This document shows, one piece after another, positions 9,528-25,430 of a stretch of 64,000 nucleotides of DNA. How positions within the stretch are numbered: the stretch's first letter is position 1; each line of letters starts with the position of its first letter. The stretch spans positions 310,001-374,000 of the forward strand of contig NZ_CP108352.1 in the NCBI RefSeq assembly GCF_036237275.1. The letters are read 5' to 3'. Source of the DNA: Streptomyces sp. NBC_01353 (GTDB taxonomy: Bacteria; Actinomycetota; Actinomycetes; Streptomycetales; Streptomycetaceae). Made by a program: the position numbers and the translations under genes. The notes below the pieces were generated by a model. It did no database searches. It saw nothing but the letters and a program-made list of their open reading frames with translations, and was not told the origin of the DNA.

Positions 9528-9959
9528 ATGTTGATGCGCACTGATCCGTTCCGTGAGCTGGACCGCCTGGCGCAGCAGCTGATGGGCCCGGGCACCTGGT
9601 CCCGCCCCTCGGTGATGCCGATGGACGCCTACCGCGAGGGCGACGAATACGTGGTGGCCTTCGACCTTCCGGGCGTCACCGCGGACGCGATCGACATCGA
9701 CGTCGAGCGGAACATGCTGACGGTCAAGGCCGAGCGCCGGCCGGTGGCGAAGGCCGACGACGTACAGATGGAACTGTCCGAGCGGCCGCTGGGCGTCTTC
9801 TCCCGCCAGATCGTGCTCGCCGACACCCTCGACACCGAGCGCATCCAGGCGGACTACGACGCGGGCGTGCTCACTCTGCGCATCCCGATCGCCGAGCGCG
9901 CCAGGCCGCGCAAGATCTCCATCGGCGTCGGATCCGGCCGCCAGGAGATCTCCGGCTGA
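9528..9959 (+). CDS. hsp18: HSP18, small heat-shock protein (Hsp20 family)
   Basis: The 143-aa protein has the alpha-crystallin fold: PVMPMDAYREGDEYVV-type first strands, FDLPGVTADAID, NMLTVKAERR, the conserved end-strand DAGVLTLRIP and a basic C-terminus. GGAGG lies 10 bases before the ATG at 9528; a second ATG is two codons on. The product is an ATP-independent chaperone holding unfolded proteins. It is single-standing after the RheA operators, so repression relieved by heat is the expected control. Confidence 0.92.
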   Translation: MLMRTDPFRELDRLAQQLMGPGTWSRPSVMPMDAYREGDEYVVAFDLPGVTADAIDIDVERNMLTVKAERRPVAKADDVQMELSERPLGVFSRQIVLADTLDTERIQADYDAGVLTLRIPIAERARPRKISIGVGSGRQEISG

Positions 9960-10059
9960 CACGGACCGGACGGGTGCGGAGGGCGGGCACCTGATCTCCC
10001 CCTCACCTCGCGCTCCGCACCCCCGTCGGAAGTCCGAAGAAGAAGGGGTGGTGGCCGGC

Positions 10060-10449
10060 ATGACTCTGCGACGCGAAGCGTTCCTCGGTCAGGTGAAGGA
10101 GCGCGGCGAGTACGACACTCTGGAGGAAGCCGAGCGCGCGGCCCGCGTGGTGCTCGCCCTCCTCGGCGCACACCTGGTCGGCAGCGTCCGCGCCCAGCTG
10201 GCCGCGCGCCTGCCTGAGGCGTTCGCCCTGATCCTGCTCAATCCGCTGCAGAGCGCCGAGCCGCTGCCCCCGGAGCGTTTCGTCCGCGCAACCGCCGCAT
10301 GGATCGAAGGCGCCACCGAGCAGACCGCGGCGTGGGACGTCAGCGCCGTGCTGTCCACCGTCGCCGGCGCCGCCGGCGAGGACCTGCTGGGCCAGATCCT
10401 GCTGCAGCTCCCCACCGGCTACGACCTGCTCTTCGGCCGCCCCCAATGA
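10060..10449 (+). CDS. DUF2267 protein, copy 1
   Basis: The protein reads VKERGEYDTLEEAERAARVVLALLGAHL, LAARLPEAFALI and ends with DLLGQILLQLPTGYDLLFG. These are the features of DUF2267: an opening helix with Y/F-x-T-x-E-A, the LP-x motif and the closing LP-x-Y-x-x-LF. ATG at 10060 follows AAGGGG; a GTG at 10048 is also possible. It lies 100 bases after hsp18 and is followed by a paralogue. Such genes are often stress-linked, though the biochemical role is not known. Confidence 0.75.
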   Translation: MTLRREAFLGQVKERGEYDTLEEAERAARVVLALLGAHLVGSVRAQLAARLPEAFALILLNPLQSAEPLPPERFVRATAAWIEGATEQTAAWDVSAVLSTVAGAAGEDLLGQILLQLPTGYDLLFGRPQ

Positions 10450-10501
10450 CCACCCACCCGGTGCCCGACCACCGGCCACACCAAGAAAGGCAGCCACCCC
10501 C

Positions 10502-10939
10502 GTGATCTCCGACCGGCACGCACCGCCTCAGCAGCCGTACGGGAAGGCATACGAAGAGATGCTGGAGAAGGTCCGCTACGAGGGCGCCTATCCCACCCGC
10601 GAGAGGGCCGACGAAGCCGTCCGCCTCGTTCTCGCCGGACTGGGGCGTCAGCTGACCGGCGCCGAACGCGTCGACCTGGCTGCTTGCCTGCCCTTGGAAG
10701 CCGCACTCGTGCTGACCGCGCAGATCCCCGCCAGCCAGCCGCTGACCGGCTGGTCCTTCGTCAAGGACCTCGCCGCCCGCACCGGCGCCTCCCTGGCCAC
10801 GACCCGCTGGGACACCGGCTCCGTCTTCTCCGCCGTCACGGCCTACGCCCGCCCCGACCTGATTACCCGCATCCTCCGACAGCTCCCCACCGGCTACGCC
10901 CTGCTGTTCGGCCGCGCCGAACTCACCCCAGCCGCGTAG
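10502..10939 (+). CDS. DUF2267 protein, copy 2
   Basis: The 145-aa product shares with its neighbour the opening EMLEKVRYEGAYPTRERADEAV, the ACLPLEAALVLT motif and the closing RILRQLPTGYALLFG, so this is a tandem duplication that has diverged. The start is GTG at 10502, 52 bases after the first copy. Both may be co-transcribed and could form a hetero-oligomer (inference). Confidence 0.75.
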   Translation: MISDRHAPPQQPYGKAYEEMLEKVRYEGAYPTRERADEAVRLVLAGLGRQLTGAERVDLAACLPLEAALVLTAQIPASQPLTGWSFVKDLAARTGASLATTRWDTGSVFSAVTAYARPDLITRILRQLPTGYALLFGRAELTPAA

Positions 10940-15802: not shown

Positions 15803-17332
15803 ATGAGACACCTGCCCGGTACCTACGAGTCGTACTGGATGGAAACGGGGACGGGGCCCGAGCATCCCTCCCTGACCGGTGATCTGGAAGTCGATGTGGC
15901 AGTGGTCGGTGCCGGTGTCGCCGGGATCTGCACCGCCTGGGAACTCGCACGCGCCGGGCTGCGGGTCGCCCTGCTCGAAGGCGACCGCGTGGCGGCGGGA
16001 GTCACCGGTTACACCACCGCGAAGCTCTCCGCCCAGCACGGCCTCCTCTACGCCCATCTGCGCAAGTCCTTCGGAGTGGAAGGAGCGCGGCAGTACGCGC
16101 GCTCGCAGCAGGAGGCCGTCGACTACGTCGACCGGGTCGCGGCGGAGCTGGGGATCGATTGCGAGCTGGAACGGGTGCCGGCATACACGTACGTGGAGTC
16201 GGCGCACGCGGTCGACCAGCTGCGGGCCGAGGCGGACGCGGCGCGCGAGGCAGGGCTGGCGGCTTCGTTCGTCGCGGAAACCGGGCTGCCGTATCCCGTC
16301 GCGGGCGCGGTCCGGGTGGACCACCAGGCACAGTTCCATCCACGGAAGTTTCTACTCGCTCTCGTCGCTGATCTCGTCGAACGCGGCGGGACCGTGCACG
16401 AACGAACGCGGATCGTCTCGCTCGACGAGGGCGAGCCCTGCCGGCTCACCGCCGAGAGCGGGGCCGAGATCGTGGCCCGTGACGTCGTCGTCGCCACGCA
16501 CTACCCCGTCTTCGACCGCGCCCTGCTGTTCTCCCGGCTCGAACCGCACCGTGAACTCGTCATCGCGGCCGCCCTGCCTGCCGACGAGGACCCTCAGGGC
16601 ATGTACCTGACCCAGGAGCAGAACACCCGGTCGGTGCGGACCGCTCCGTACGGCGAGGGGAAGCGGCTGCTCATCGTCACCGGGGAGAAGTTCACACCGG
16701 GCGTCGGCGACGTGGGCGAGCGCTACGAGCAGCTCGCCACCTGGACCTTGGAACGCTTCCCTGCCGCGCGGATCACGCACCGGTGGGCGGCGCAGGACAA
16801 CACCACCACCGACAAGGTGCCCTTCGTCGGGCCCTTCCACCCCGGCTCCCGGCACGTGTACGTGGCGACCGGCTTCGGTGGCTGGGGCATGAGCAACGGC
16901 GTCATGTCCGGCCGGCTCCTCGCCGCCCAGATCACGGGCGGCAAGCTGCCCTGGGCCTCGCTGTACGACCCGCGACGCCTCCACGCCCGCGAGACACCGT
17001 CCCTGCTGAAGGTGCAGGGTTCGGTTCTCAAGCACTTCGTGGGCGACCGGCTCCGCACCTCCCACGCCGACAGCATCGACGAGATCGCGCCCGGTACCGG
17101 AGCCCTCGTACGGGTCGGTGGGCGGCGCTGCGCGGTCTACCGCGACGAGAATGGCGCGACGCACGCCGTGTCCGCGCGCTGCACCCACCTGGGCTGCCTC
17201 GTCCACTTCAACGACGCCGAGCGCGCCTGGGAGTGCCCCTGCCACGGATCCCGATTCGCCGTCGACGGCTCCGTTCTCCAGGGCCCTGCCGTCCACCCGC
17301 TCGAACCGCGGTCGTTGCCCGAGACCGACTGA
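15803..17332 (+). CDS. FAD-dependent oxidoreductase fused to a Rieske [2Fe-2S] domain
   Basis: Residues 29-60 read VDVAVVGAGVAGICTAWELARAG-type Rossmann GxGxxG for FAD, and the DAO-type body ends with VYVATGFGGWGMSNGV and the second FAD contact. Residues 430-500 contain CTHLGC and CPCHGSRF, the CxH...CxxH pair of a Rieske cluster, followed by GPAVHPLEPR. At 509 residues the order matches DadA/Rieske fusions known in bacteria. GGGAGAG lies 8 bases before ATG. It stands alone. The electron donor and substrate are unknown. Confidence 0.9.
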   Translation: MRHLPGTYESYWMETGTGPEHPSLTGDLEVDVAVVGAGVAGICTAWELARAGLRVALLEGDRVAAGVTGYTTAKLSAQHGLLYAHLRKSFGVEGARQYARSQQEAVDYVDRVAAELGIDCELERVPAYTYVESAHAVDQLRAEADAAREAGLAASFVAETGLPYPVAGAVRVDHQAQFHPRKFLLALVADLVERGGTVHERTRIVSLDEGEPCRLTAESGAEIVARDVVVATHYPVFDRALLFSRLEPHRELVIAAALPADEDPQGMYLTQEQNTRSVRTAPYGEGKRLLIVTGEKFTPGVGDVGERYEQLATWTLERFPAARITHRWAAQDNTTTDKVPFVGPFHPGSRHVYVATGFGGWGMSNGVMSGRLLAAQITGGKLPWASLYDPRRLHARETPSLLKVQGSVLKHFVGDRLRTSHADSIDEIAPGTGALVRVGGRRCAVYRDENGATHAVSARCTHLGCLVHFNDAERAWECPCHGSRFAVDGSVLQGPAVHPLEPRSLPETD

Positions 17333-19690: not shown

Positions 19691-20125
19691 CACGCCTTCC
19701 TGCCGCTGGGCAACGATCCCCAAGCGAGAAGGGCGAGCCCAGTCAGCTCTCGGGAGAAGGAGCGCCAGGCTGCCTTGTAAGGCGACAGTCGCCCGGCACC
19801 GGCTACAGCTCACCGGCAAACCCCGCTTCGTCTTGCTGGACCCGTTCCGGCCGACGAGTCGATCCGTTCCGGATGGCCGCGACGCCTGTTTTACATGCAA
19901 CTGCCGTGGGAACCCGTCAGTCGATCGCAAAGCGACCGAGGCTCGCTCCCGAGTACTCACTCTCTGCGCCGTCACGGTGGGCGCGGCCGAGCGCAGCGCG
20001 GCTAGGGCCTCGGCGATCCGGCTGAGCTGGGACAGGTGCACCTCGGCGGCGTCCCAGTCAGCTTCGAGAAGCAAGCAAGTGGGGGAAGTCGGCGTCTGGC
20101 GGGTGCTGAAGTGGACAGGTTGTCG

Positions 20126-20539
20126 ATGTATCTGCAGGAAGTACTCGGGTCGGGCTGCGTGGCCCAGGCCGAGGTCCTCCGCATGGACGGCACGGTGCGC
20201 ACGTCGACGGGGCCGTGGCTCACGACGGTCCAGGAAGGCAGACGGCTGGCGAGTCTGTTCGAAGCGCCGGCGGACACCATCGCCGCGGGGATCACGGTAG
20301 GCGGACGCACATACGTGGCCGCGCAGGCTGATCGGCGTCTCCTGCACGGCAAACGTGGGACAGCCGGCGTAGTGGCCGTTCGGCATCCTCCATTCATCGT
20401 GGTCGCCCTGTACGGAGAGGAGCACCGTCCCGCGGACGCGGTCCTGGCCATTGGCAACCTTGCCGACCTTCTCGCGTCCCGTGCCGAGCACCCGGACTCG
20501 CCCCCGCGGCATCCCGCGGGGCCCCAGGCCAAGTTCTGA
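20126..20539 (+). CDS. Bacterial profilin-like protein
   Basis: The 137-aa protein opens MYLQEVLGSGCVAQAEVLRMDGTV, then STGPWLTTVQEGRRLASLF, AGITVGGRTYVAAQAD, HGKRGTAGVVAV, FIVVALYGEEHRPADAV and GNLADLLASR. Order and spacing of these blocks match eukaryotic profilin: a DGSVWA-like strand, the GGxxY-x-x-Q strand, GKKGxxG, the strand ending in Y-x-E and a closing helix with L-x-D-Y/L-L. Length is also right. ATG at 20126 follows an AGG; TTG two codons earlier is possible. Actin binding cannot be claimed; a role with actin-like or other partners is inference. Confidence 0.65.
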   Translation: MYLQEVLGSGCVAQAEVLRMDGTVRTSTGPWLTTVQEGRRLASLFEAPADTIAAGITVGGRTYVAAQADRRLLHGKRGTAGVVAVRHPPFIVVALYGEEHRPADAVLAIGNLADLLASRAEHPDSPPRHPAGPQAKF

Positions 20540-21055: not shown

Positions 21056-21483
21056 TCACACCGCGTCAGCGCTGGAGGCCGACTCGGGGAAATCCCGGAG
21101 GTGTGCGCGCATCAGCGCGACGGGCCTGGAATGGTCACAGTGGACGAGGACCGTGCCGGTCATCTCCGAGCCGCCGCGCGACCAGTTCTCGAACGGACGG
21201 GAGGTGAAGTACGAGACGGCAGCGTGACCCGACGCTCGTCCCAGGTCCGTACGGTGAGGAAGGTCAGCGTCACCTCCTCAACGACCCCCCATTCGCCGTC
21301 GACCACGACCGTATCGCCGATGCGCACCATGTCGCCGAACGCGATCTGGAACTCGGCGAAGAGGTTCCCGAGCGTCGACTGCGCCGCAACACCGGCCACG
21401 ATGCCGATGATCCCGGCCGAGGCGAGCAGGGACGTGCCGAGGGCACGGAAGGACGGGAAGGTCACGCCCGAGGCCCGAACCAC
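21056..21483 (-). pseudogene. MscS-family mechanosensitive channel, remnant
   Basis: The frame reads FRALGTSLLASAGIIGIVAG, VAAQSTLGNLFAEFQIAFG, DMVRIGDTVVVDGEWG and VRTWDERRVTLP, the pore helix and beta domain of MscS proteins. Near 21218 the frame shifts and the other frame continues YFTSRPFENWSRGGSEMTG and LVHCDHSRP to a stop at 21056. The N-terminal membrane helices are gone and the C-terminus is short. It is a decayed channel. Confidence 0.75.
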
Positions 21484-21992: not shown

Positions 21993-22301
21993 ATGGCCGA
22001 CACATCCGAGCACGGTACGGAGAAGACGGACCAGAGGCAGCCGGTCCACGCCGCCGCGGTGATCCGGGCAGCGAAGGAACAGCTGACGGAGCTGCTGTCT
22101 CAGCCGGCCGAGGCGGTCAGCGCCTGCGAGCGCCACGAGAACGGCGTCTGGCGGCTGTCGGTCGAAGTCCTCGAGCTGCCCCGGGTCCCGGACACCGTGA
22201 GCCTGCTGGCCTCGTACGACGTGGAGGTCGACGACCACGGCGTGCTCATCGGCTACCGGCGCACCTGGCGTTACGAGAGGGGTCGTGTAGACCGCCGCTG
22301 A
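21993..22301 (+). CDS. gvpO: Gas vesicle protein GvpO
   Basis: The 102-aa product reads AAAVIRAAKEQLTELL, CERHENGVWRLSVEVLELPRVPD and LLASYDVEVDD-G followed by GYRRTWRYERG. This pattern (E/V-W-x-V-x-VVE-x-xR-x-P and RY-RG) is that of GvpO, an accessory protein of vesicle formation. A GGAGGAAG site precedes ATG. It opens the gvp cluster. Confidence 0.85.
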   Translation: MADTSEHGTEKTDQRQPVHAAAVIRAAKEQLTELLSQPAEAVSACERHENGVWRLSVEVLELPRVPDTVSLLASYDVEVDDHGVLIGYRRTWRYERGRVDRR

Positions 22302-22355
22302 CCGGCGATGGCCCGGCCTCCGTCCCCGAGACGAGACAAGAAGGAACCGGAAACC

Positions 22356-22802
22356 ATGACTGTCGTTCCTGCCCAACCCGCGTCAACCGCCTCCGGAGGC
22401 GGCTCCAGTGGCTTGTACGACGTCCTCGAACTGGTACTGGACCGCGGCCTGGTGATCGACGTGTTCGTGCGGGTCTCCCTGGTCGGCATCGAGATCCTGA
22501 AGATCGACATACGTGTCGTCGTCGCCAGTGTGGACACCTATCTGAGGTTCGCCGAGGCCTGCAACCGGCTCGACCTGGAGGCCGGTCCGCGGAAGAACCC
22601 GGGCCTGCCCGAACTCGTCGGCGAGGCCACCGAGTCGGGCGCGCACCGCAAAACAAAGGGCGCCCTGAGCGGCGCCGCCCAGAGCATCTCCGACGCCTTC
22701 CACCAGGTGCGCGGCGACGACGCCGAGGCGGAGAAGGAGTCGGCCCCGAGCAAGTCCCGGAGGCGTAGCAGCACCAGCACCCGCGGGGAGGAGAAGGAAT
22801 GA
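22356..22802 (+). CDS. gvpA: Gas vesicle structural protein GvpA with a long basic tail
   Basis: Residues 15-70 form the GvpA core: LYDVLELVLDRGLVIDVFVR, VSLVGIEILKIDIRVVVAS and VDTYLRFAEA. This is the amphipathic unit that builds the ribbed gas-permeable wall. A further 80 residues (LVGEATESGAHRKT ... SKSRRRSSTSTRGEE) are low-complexity and charged, as in actinobacterial members. The ATG at 22356 follows AGAAGGAA. The stop overlaps gvpF by ATGA. Confidence 0.88.
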   Translation: MTVVPAQPASTASGGGSSGLYDVLELVLDRGLVIDVFVRVSLVGIEILKIDIRVVVASVDTYLRFAEACNRLDLEAGPRKNPGLPELVGEATESGAHRKTKGALSGAAQSISDAFHQVRGDDAEAEKESAPSKSRRRSSTSTRGEEKE

Positions 22803-23518
22803 GCACCTACGTCTACGGCATCACCCGCGCGGAACAGAAGCTGCCGGACGACGCCGAGGGCATCGGCCAGCCACCGATGCCGGTGAGGACCGTGCGGAGC
22901 GGCGCGCTGGTTGCCCTGGTGAGCGACGCACCCATCGAGCTGAAACCCAAGCGGCGCGACCTGCTGGCCCACCAAAGGGTGGTGATCGGTGCTGCGAGCG
23001 GAGGGCCCGTGCTACCGCTCAGGTTCGGCGGGGTCTCCCCCGACGACGCCACCGTCGCATCGATCCTCGACGAACACCAAGACCGCTATCTGGAGCGCCT
23101 CGCAGCACTCGAGGGCAAGGACGAGTTCAACGTGAAGGCCTCCCATCACGAGGAGGCCGTGCTGGCAGCCGTGCTGGCCGAGGACCCCGAGCTGCTGAGG
23201 CGGCACGCTGCCAACCGCGCGGCGAAAGGCGGCGATCACGCGGCGAGGCTGGCGTTCGGCGAGCTCGTGGCCCGAGCGGTCGCCGAGCGGGAGCAGGCCG
23301 ACGCTGCGCTGGTCGGGCAGACGCTCGCCCCTCGTGCAGCCGGGACGCGCCCAGGCCCGGAGGGCACCGGATGGCTGGCCAACCTGTCGTTCCTGGTGGA
23401 ACGAGAACGACAGGAGGAGTTCCTGGAAGCCGTCCGGCGCCTGCACGAGGAACACGAACACCTGCAGGTGCAGGTGACGGGCCCGCTGCCGGCGTACAGC
23501 TTCGCCGCGGCGGACTGA
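22799..23518 (+). CDS. gvpF: Gas vesicle protein GvpF/L family, copy 1
   Basis: The 239-aa protein starts MSTYVYGITR and has VVIGAASGGPVLPLRFGG, NVKASHHEEAVLAAVL, YLERLAALEGKDEF and a closing LQVQVTGPLPAYSF. The Y-V-Y-G-I start, the PLRFG core and the final TGP-x-P-x-YSF are GvpF/L features. It probably sits at the vesicle tip or binds GvpA subunits during assembly. It overlaps gvpA and is followed 5 bases later by gvpG. Confidence 0.88.
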   Translation: MSTYVYGITRAEQKLPDDAEGIGQPPMPVRTVRSGALVALVSDAPIELKPKRRDLLAHQRVVIGAASGGPVLPLRFGGVSPDDATVASILDEHQDRYLERLAALEGKDEFNVKASHHEEAVLAAVLAEDPELLRRHAANRAAKGGDHAARLAFGELVARAVAEREQADAALVGQTLAPRAAGTRPGPEGTGWLANLSFLVERERQEEFLEAVRRLHEEHEHLQVQVTGPLPAYSFAAAD

Positions 23519-23523
23519 GCGCC

Positions 23524-23781
23524 ATGGGTCTGCTCAAGGAGGTGCTGCTGCTGCCCGCCGCGCCGGTCCGGGGCACGGCGTGGGTGCTCAGGCAGGTTGT
23601 CGCCGAAGCGGAGCGGCAGTACTACGACCCGGCCGTGATCCAGCGGGAGCTGGCGCAATTGGTCGCCGTGTTCGAGGCCGGCGAAATGGACGAGTGCGAA
23701 TTCAACCGCCGGGAGGACGAACTACTGGCCAGGCTGGAGCACGCCGGCAGGGCGGGCGGGGCGCAGGGGGCGGGGACATGA
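23524..23781 (+). CDS. gvpG: Gas vesicle protein GvpG
   Basis: The 85-aa product reads MGLLKEVLLLPAAPVRGTAWVLRQVV, AEAERQYYDPAVIQRELAQL and EFNRREDELLARLE. The pattern G-x-x-x-LP-x-AP, then two helices ending with E-x-F-x-x-x-EDELL is GvpG. It overlaps gvpJ by ATGA. Confidence 0.85.
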   Translation: MGLLKEVLLLPAAPVRGTAWVLRQVVAEAERQYYDPAVIQRELAQLVAVFEAGEMDECEFNRREDELLARLEHAGRAGGAQGAGT

Positions 23782-24095
23782 CCATGCCCTCCGGCCTCCC
23801 CCGCCCCTACGACGACCACTCCGGTGATGCCAACCTCGCCGACATCCTCGAACGCGTCCTCGACAAAGGCGTCGTCATCGCCGGGGACATCCGCATCAAC
23901 CTCCTCGACATCGAGCTCCTCACCATCAAGCTGCGCCTCGTCGTCGCGTCCGTCGAGCGGGCGAAGGAAATGGGGATCGACTGGTGGGAACAGGATCCGG
24001 CGCTCTCCTCCCGGGCGCGGCAGGGTGAGCTGGGCCGGGAGAACGATGAACTGCGCCGCCGGGTCGCCGAGTTGGAAGCAAGGACGGAGACATGA
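23778..24095 (+). CDS. gvpJ: Gas vesicle minor structural protein GvpJ
   Basis: The product has the GvpA-type core LADILERVLDKGVVIAGDIR, INLLDIELLTIKLRLVVASV, then WWEQDPALSS and a coiled-coil tail ending ELRRRVAELEARTET. Compared with GvpA it has the I-A-G-D-I/L-D signature of GvpJ/M-type members that shape the conical ends. It is coupled on both sides (ATGA overlaps). Confidence 0.82.
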   Translation: MTMPSGLPRPYDDHSGDANLADILERVLDKGVVIAGDIRINLLDIELLTIKLRLVVASVERAKEMGIDWWEQDPALSSRARQGELGRENDELRRRVAELEARTET

Positions 24096-24949
24096 CCCCG
24101 GGACCCCTGCTGTACGTGTACGCCGTCGTCGCCTCCTCCCCCGCGCCCTATCCGCCTCCCACGCCGGACGAACTTCCCGACGCCCCGCTCGGCGCGAGTC
24201 TCGCGCTGGTCGAGCACCGGGGGCTCACCGCCGTCGTCGAGCCCGTCGACGCGGGCGAGTTCGACGAGAGTCCACTGCGGGAGCACCTGGAGGACCTCGA
24301 CTGGCTGGCATCGGTCGCCCGCGCCCACCACCGAGTGGTGGACGCCGTCGGTCGCCGCACCACGACAGTTCCGATCCGGCTGGCGACCATCTGCCGCGGC
24401 GAGGCGGGGGTACGCCGACTGCTGAGCTCCGGCCATGACCGGCTGCGCGCGAGCCTCGAGCGGGTCGCCGGCACGGAGGAATGGGGCGTCAAGCTGTACG
24501 TGGACGACGACGCGGACCCATCGGACCGGACCGAATCGCAAAGACCGGCCACTTCGTCAGGCTCGGCGGATTCGCCAGGATCATCGGGCTCTGCGCATGT
24601 CGACGGCTCGGCGGGGCGCGACTATCTGCGCCGGCGCCTGGACGACCGCAGGACCCGCCAGGACCGCGCCGCGAGGATCTCCGACACCGCTGACCGCGTC
24701 CACGCGCTGCTCGCGACCCGCGCGACCGATGCTGTACGCCACCCGCCGCAACATGCGCGGCTCTCGCACACCCCCGGCCGGAACGTACTCAACACCGCCT
24801 ATCTCGTCCCGGTCGAGGGACGGGAGGCCTTCCTGGAAGCGGTCCCGGCGCCGGACGACCTACCCGACGGCGTACGCGTGGACATGACGGGCCCCTGGGT
24901 GCCGTACTCCTTCGCCCAGAGCGCCCTCGAACCGGAAGCGAACCGATGA
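24092..24949 (+). CDS. gvpL: Gas vesicle protein GvpL (GvpF/L family, copy 2)
   Basis: The 285-aa product reads LLYVYAVVASS at the start, HRGLTAVVEPVDAGEFD, ARAHHRVVDAVGRRTTTVPIR, EWGVKLYVDDDAD and ends NTAYLVPVEGREAFLEAV and TGPWVPYSFA. A Ser/Gly/Asp-rich insert of about 40 residues sits at 150-190. It is the second GvpF/L protein of the operon and overlaps gvpJ and gvpS. Confidence 0.86.
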   Translation: MTPGPLLYVYAVVASSPAPYPPPTPDELPDAPLGASLALVEHRGLTAVVEPVDAGEFDESPLREHLEDLDWLASVARAHHRVVDAVGRRTTTVPIRLATICRGEAGVRRLLSSGHDRLRASLERVAGTEEWGVKLYVDDDADPSDRTESQRPATSSGSADSPGSSGSAHVDGSAGRDYLRRRLDDRRTRQDRAARISDTADRVHALLATRATDAVRHPPQHARLSHTPGRNVLNTAYLVPVEGREAFLEAVPAPDDLPDGVRVDMTGPWVPYSFAQSALEPEANR

Positions 24950-25155
24950 CGGGCCGCGATGCGGTGGCGGTCCGCGACGAGGAGGAGATCGCCCTCGTCG
25001 ACCTCCTGGACCGGCTCCTGGCCGGCGGTGTGGTCCTTGCAGGAGACATCACCCTGCGCATCGCCGACGTCGATCTCGTACGCATCGATCTCAAGGCGCT
25101 CGTCAGCTCCGTCGGCGACGCCGTGCCGTCCCCGTGGAAGCAGGTGACGACGTGA
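24946..25155 (+). CDS. gvpS: Gas vesicle protein GvpS (GvpA-like, small)
   Basis: The 69-aa protein reads EIALVDLLDRLLAGGVVLAG, DITLRIADVDLVRIDLKALV and SSVGDAVPSPW. It is the GvpA-type core with the A-G-D-I signature and almost no tail. It overlaps gvpL (ATGA) and gvpK (GTGA). The symbol follows position in the Streptomyces-type cluster; it could be called GvpM elsewhere. Confidence 0.75.
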   Translation: MTGRDAVAVRDEEEIALVDLLDRLLAGGVVLAGDITLRIADVDLVRIDLKALVSSVGDAVPSPWKQVTT

Positions 25156-25430
25156 CCTCACCGCGGCCCCGGCGGGTCGAACTCGACCCCGACACGGTCG
25201 AACGTGACCTGGCACGGCTGGTGTTGACCGTCATCGAGCTGCTGCGGGAACTGATGGAGCGCCAGGCACTGCGTCGGGTCGAGGTCGGCGACCTCACCGA
25301 GGAGCAGGAAGAGCGGCTCGGGCTGACCCTCATGCTCCTCGAAGACCGGATGGGCGTGCTCCGGAACCGGTTCGGCCTGAAACCGGAGGATCTCAACATC
25401 GACCTGGGCCCTCTGGGCAAATTGCTCTGA
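25152..25430 (+). CDS. gvpK: Gas vesicle protein GvpK
   Basis: GTG at 25152 overlaps the gvpS stop. The product reads VELDPDTVERDLARLVLTVIELLRE, LMERQALRRVE, EEQEERLGLTLMLLEDRM and ends FGLKPEDLNIDLGPLGKLL. The D-P-D-x-V-x-R-x-LA-L start and the LNIDLGPLG end are GvpK. It is accessory to vesicle assembly and closes the recognised gvp genes. Confidence 0.9.
   Translation: MTSPRPRRVELDPDTVERDLARLVLTVIELLRELMERQALRRVEVGDLTEEQEERLGLTLMLLEDRMGVLRNRFGLKPEDLNIDLGPLGKLL

Follow-up and report, generated by a model that had tools for sequence, protein, structure and literature searches.

A diverged profilin homologue in a few Streptomyces genomes with no detected eukaryote-type actin

Profilin is an actin regulator of eukaryotes, and its motifs in a bacterial frame raise the question of whether a true profilin is encoded there and what it would do. 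We followed this question at a locus of Streptomyces sp. NBC_01353, within a stretch of 64,000 nucleotides (contig NZ_CP108352.1, positions 310,001 to 374,000) that is called the window here. Positions 20126-20539 of the forward strand hold an uninterrupted frame of 137 codons with MDGTV, GGRTYVAAQ, HGKRGTAGV, VALYGEE and LADLL, in that sequence. Our reading, to which we give a probability of a little under one half, is that a genuine homologue of profilin, eukaryotic by descent and held by a small streptomycete clade, has been repurposed as a binding module that plausibly belongs to a stress setting.

The homology itself is close to certain. In the Pfam search, Profilin (PF00235) was the sole match listed up to an E-value of 10, at 8.6e-20 and 71.6 bits, where the curated cut-off is 25, and it spans positions 6-124 of the 127 in the model; the NCBIfam search of the same protein gave no significant match (best E-value 0.044). 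The best matches among PDB sequences were Acanthamoeba profilins (2.4e-17 to 2.7e-14), followed by fungal and other profilins. The Acanthamoeba proteins came first again with a profile of the four closely related streptomycete proteins that we call type I, which matched 27 profilin sequences at E-values up to 2e-5 and one non-profilin at 0.13. The AlphaFold2 model of the window protein (predicted local distance difference test score 84.2) has a predicted seven-stranded sheet with the N- and C-terminal helices on its flanks, and rows 1-46 of the Foldseek/VIA comparison with this model are all profilins (TMq up to 0.80). A Roadblock/LC7 protein, or another bacterial protein with a profilin-like fold, is very unlikely, since the Roadblock structure 3kye of S. 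avermitilis appears at Foldseek rank 47 (TMq 0.57) behind those profilins, the type I profile also favours profilin, and Roadblock is absent from the Pfam matches listed up to an E-value of 10, where filters remove most matches above about 0.1. The preliminary description of this gene had reported an intact frame with ordered motif blocks, which the frame check and a PF00235 match far beyond chance bear out, and had proposed a profilin fold, which is now backed by profile, sequence comparison and predicted structure. The outcome that it had named as fatal, a roadblock fold with no profile match, did not occur.

Profilins IA, IB and II of Acanthamoeba castellanii (PDB 1prq, 1acf and 2acg/1f2k) are the best matches in both sequence and fold. 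They have the same order of elements and share the YGKKG/HGKRG and LADYL/LADLL segments (Acanthamoeba/window). However, identity to profilins IA and II is 22-33%, the type I proteins have lost the WQTYVD helix and its aromatics, and their host is a bacterium with no eukaryote-type actin detected by PF00022. The Asgard archaeal profilins (PDB 5yed, 5yee, 5zza and 5zzb) are more distant, with 15-16% identity in structural alignments.

Alignment with relatives suggests that the gene begins at GTG 20111, which would give 142 residues and a gene at 20111..20539 (+); this codon aligns with the ATG of the Streptomyces sp. ISL-66 gene (alignment A3). A start at ATG 20126 (137 residues), which has a GGACAGG stretch upstream, is a possible alternative. 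The contig comprises 8.47 Mb of an 8.57-Mb genome with 99.98% completeness and a single PF00235 copy, so the gene is chromosomal and does not come from a contaminant contig.

Homologues in other streptomycetes, which the first description had suggested looking for, were found. Two overlapping samples of Streptomyces, of 295 and 392 genomes, each contained seven with PF00235, the same seven both times. A sample of 391 genomes from the order had four positives, every one in the window's genus, and a phylum-wide sample of 396 had only the genome of the window. Over three samples, eight genomes are positive (G000, G039, G046, G112, G188, G191, G208 and G392). The type I proteins are those of the window, Streptomyces sp. 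ISL-66, S. avidinii JCM 4726 and S. bambusae T110. The window frame is 56-62% identical to the other three, type I pairs are 50-64% identical over the conserved part, and the clade has 100/100 support in the tree. Type II proteins (G112 and the one-contig genome G208) are more eukaryote-like and keep the WQxYVD helix; they too are closest to Acanthamoeba profilins among PDB sequences and are 20-35% identical to type I. The G392 profilin is spread over three frames (L018, G392:C41:3987-4356, reverse strand) and is apparently a broken copy, and the G191 copy is partial. Neither is counted as intact here, since we regard each as broken, incomplete or poorly assembled. A single origin of all bacterial profilins was neither rejected nor demonstrated by the approximately unbiased test (p 0.169).

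Relatives also occur on plasmids, namely on pRLB1-9.2, where the gene is annotated as profilin, and on the megaplasmid of Streptantibioticus (Streptomyces) cattleyicolor (two records). The annotated frame on the linear plasmid pRLB1-9.2 (L022:9917-10261) is without the usual N-terminal helix. A phage- or plasmid-borne type I gene was considered and rejected, as tblastn with the window protein returned no phage record and one plasmid record, of a different protein with 33% identity. A plasmid search with the G208 protein gave no matches. Pattern scans found no relatives among 35 matches in viral contigs (alignment A3), none among 197 in genome contigs with one sequence, and three among 74 in genome contigs with alignment A1; the negatives of these scans are weak because exact short peptide patterns are required.

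Judging from codon positions, the type I frames are open and under purifying selection: the rate of difference at third positions is 1.4-2.3 times that at first or second positions in all six pairwise comparisons. The Trp and Tyr of the WQxYVD helix 1 are missing in all four type I proteins and present in the three type II proteins that have an N-terminus. The strand-2 Trp is retained within type I only in ISL-66, and the Tyr of ADYL is Leu in all four. Type I is not classed as a canonical profilin because these aromatics of the N- and C-terminal poly-proline groove are missing. Mean pairwise identity within type I is lowest in helix 1 (0.28) and highest in strand 3 (0.83), strand 5 with LLHGK (0.78) and helix 4 (0.67). 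The Lys of the YGK position, which we take to be important for actin binding in fission yeast (a literature search found no paper on the point), is Lys in three of the four proteins and Arg in the fourth. The pattern of residues and elements therefore indicates that the poly-proline side has decayed and that the actin side is only partly conserved.

A canonical profilin would share its cell with a eukaryote-type actin, and PF00022 detected none in any of the eight profilin genomes. In the window genome this profile gave weak matches only (26.9 bits for the best stretch, 50.5 with in-frame neighbours), and in the other seven genomes single stretches reached at most 47.8 bits, or 51.3 with neighbours. 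The best matches in G039, G188 and G392 were rejected as eukaryotic actins, being by eye MreB-like paralogues near mreB; the remaining matches were judged on score alone. An additional MreB-like gene stands near mreB in three profilin genomes (L030:5546-6595, L031:3132-4214 and L032:5888-6949). No PF00022 match lies near the window profilin, the nearest being more than 5 Mb away. The preliminary description is thus supported in its fold; an actin-regulating role with a bacterial partner gains no support from these MreB-level scores or from the loss of the helix-1 aromatics in all four type I proteins, and no partner was identified.

A known precedent is PfnM of Microcystis aeruginosa PCC 7806, which its report describes as 84% identical to a eukaryotic profilin, encoded next to a eukaryote-type actin gene, actM, and binding ActM; in 2012 it was called the only known prokaryotic profilin homologue (PMC3254629). 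Asgard archaeal profilins came after that report (PMC8410842). The Streptomyces proteins are like PfnM in being profilins of apparent eukaryotic ancestry in a bacterium, but type I is far more diverged, no eukaryote-type actin was found, and the gene adjacency of Microcystis is absent. Mammalian PFN4, which according to a review (PMC8387879) binds neither G-actin nor poly-proline, likewise has a profilin fold without key residues, whereas type I retains Lys (or Arg) at the YGK position. Among the matches listed in open-licence literature there was no report of a Streptomyces profilin. A table in PMC2651865 lists no prokaryotic profilin orthologue, the mentions in PMC4316618 and PMC2442094 are confined to the Pfam clan and the Microcystis genes, and in three papers the phrase "bacterial profilin" means only a Toll-like receptor ligand.

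The profilin genes are located among stress-type genes. The window gene stands alone, with a gas vesicle cluster 1.45 kb downstream and an Hsp20-DUF2267 group about 9 kb upstream. The latter, at 9528..10939 (+), consists of an Hsp20 gene (HSP20 3.2e-20) and two DUF2267-type genes (DUF2267 3.5e-23 at 10502-10939), and has counterparts at 67-81% identity (blastp) close to the profilin genes of ISL-66 and S. avidinii. A gene for an oxidoreductase dependent on flavin adenine dinucleotide, with a Rieske domain, at 15803..17332 (+; DAO 4.5e-49, Rieske 4.8e-15), has a 58% homologue near the ISL-66 profilin (blastp). Near the S. avidinii profilin are HATPase_c_2, GAF-SpoIIE and DUF6098 genes, near that of ISL-66 a SpoIIE gene, and adjoining that of S. 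bambusae a STAS gene. The gas vesicle cluster at 21993..25430 (+) contains GvpO (1.7e-29), a gas vesicle structural protein (Gas_vesicle 8.7e-11), GvpL/F (GvpL_GvpF 6.2e-63) and gvp-like genes, with individual Pfam tests reaching to 23515; the type II gene of G112 is also near gas vesicle genes. A short frame at 21160-21483 (-) of the window resembles, by eye, part of a mechanosensitive channel and is perhaps a gene remnant. On the S. cattleyicolor megaplasmid, the profilin gene is divergent from an operon that by eye is conservon-like, with kinase-like, Roadblock, DUF742 and GTPase genes (L026:6993-10372).

In the reading that we prefer, a profilin gene would have passed from a eukaryote into Streptomyces, with Acanthamoeba as the nearest among solved structures. 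The poly-proline site may have been lost once formins or VASP proteins were no longer encountered, and the protein may have been retained as a small cytoplasmic binding module. For binding it would probably use the C-terminal helix and the LLHGK-bearing strand 5, both from the old actin face; the ligand would be a lipid or protein of the bacterium, plausibly met under stress, and a partner-switching protein or MreB/Mbl are candidates. A diverged clade kept under selection, in which no eukaryote-type actin is detectable, offers a natural test of the profilin fold minus its actin and poly-proline partners, and a profilin profile match in a prokaryotic genome need not mean an actin cytoskeleton.

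Several observations weigh against this reading. The neighbourhoods are similar in kind but loose, and are not a conserved operon. A gas vesicle partnership was rejected, as PF00741 genes lie within 2 kb of the profilin in two of the eight genomes (G000 and G112); elsewhere they are about 113 kb away (S. avidinii), more than 2 Mb away (G208) or on other contigs (G046, G188 and G392), and G191 has none. Two simple sigma-B-like promoter patterns were sought ahead of the four type I genes; ISL-66 alone gave a match, a loose one, and the window gave none. Three further elements of the eukaryotic actin face show average or poor conservation within type I: strand 4 (0.56), helix 3 (0.42) and strand 6 (0.54). 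The GC content at third codon positions of the window gene is 0.79, and our custom gene-calling script did not pick its frame. Among 61 genomes, comprising that of the window and its relatives, PF00235 was found in the window's alone, so the gene is dispensable at the species level. The tree leaves the donor and the number of transfers undecided.

A regulator of the bacterium's own actin relatives is the rival that survives best, and we consider it rather unlikely. The protein would bind MreB/Mbl by its old actin face and alter polymerisation or nucleotide exchange in sporulation or stress. Two parts of that face, the C-terminal helix and strand 5, rank among the best conserved elements, the YGK-position Lys or Arg is kept throughout type I, and MreB-level proteins are the only PF00022 matches in all eight profilin genomes. 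However, MreB is general in Streptomyces, whereas profilin is in only 7 of 392 genomes, and the window gene is more than 5 Mb from MreB-like genes. Since the actin-profile matches are only about 20-51 bits, the profilin interface is unlikely to be preserved.

Action on foreign actin is improbable. Here the protein would sequester the G-actin of amoebae, fungi or other eukaryotes, which it would reach through cell lysis or delivery. Amoeba profilins are the nearest solved relatives, and the sporadic distribution, shared by ADF/cofilin in the genus, resembles that of ecological effectors. At 25-33% identity to Acanthamoeba profilin IA, however, the type I proteins would be poor mimics, and they show no signal peptide or transmembrane stretch by eye (genes for secretion or injection were not searched for). 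A functionless transferred gene drifting to loss is slightly less probable still. The patchy distribution, the broken or partial copies in G392 and G191 and the third-position GC of the window gene fit such drift, but four type I copies at this divergence all have open frames, a third-position excess and conserved motifs.

The repurposed-module reading gains context from a second actin-binding family in the genus. A streptomycete ADF/cofilin homologue was noted as a probable horizontal gene transfer in PMC2651865, and it is comparable to the profilins as a eukaryotic actin-binding family in similar stress-type neighbourhoods, though the family is different. PF00241 is sporadic, in 17 of 392 Streptomyces genomes at 19 places. 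It occurs in two of the eight profilin genomes, ISL-66 (3.8e-22) and S. avidinii (3.7e-10, on the same contig about 50 kb from the profilin); this co-occurrence, in 2 of 392 genomes, is weak (P 0.033). With genes called by the custom script, 45 of the 343 genes in the 19 cofilin loci were homologues of type I profilin-neighbour genes, while 17 control stretches had 13 among 305 (P 8.5e-5 if every gene counts as independent); 21 of the 45 come from three loci. Counted per locus, the comparison is 17 of 19 against 8 of 17 (P 0.010), and without seven broad-family query genes, picked post hoc, it is 13 of 19 against 1 of 17. Control stretches were placed arbitrarily in 11 of the 17 genomes with a cofilin, without matching for distance to the chromosome end. 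SpoIIE phosphatases are equally common in the controls and therefore carry no weight as evidence.

These counts support, short of proof, the idea that captured actin-binding proteins share a stress-island setting, and they raise the question of whether MreB-like filaments or stress signalling are what such proteins act on. More tentatively, and with doubt, we suggest that Streptomyces repeatedly captured profilin and ADF/cofilin and put them to new use in stress-response islands, as binding modules that work without a eukaryote-type actin; these islands would also hold partner-switching proteins, among them a STAS-cofilin fusion. If true, this would be a bacterial regulatory layer made of domesticated actin regulators. 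The fusion protein is encoded at L070:9856-10650 (-) and matches STAS_2 (5.5e-14) and Cofilin_ADF (8.2e-8). Across the cofilin loci (L054-L070, L033 and L034), a few proteins are eukaryote-like and more are of a streptomycete type with a GNLTHDEL-like motif.
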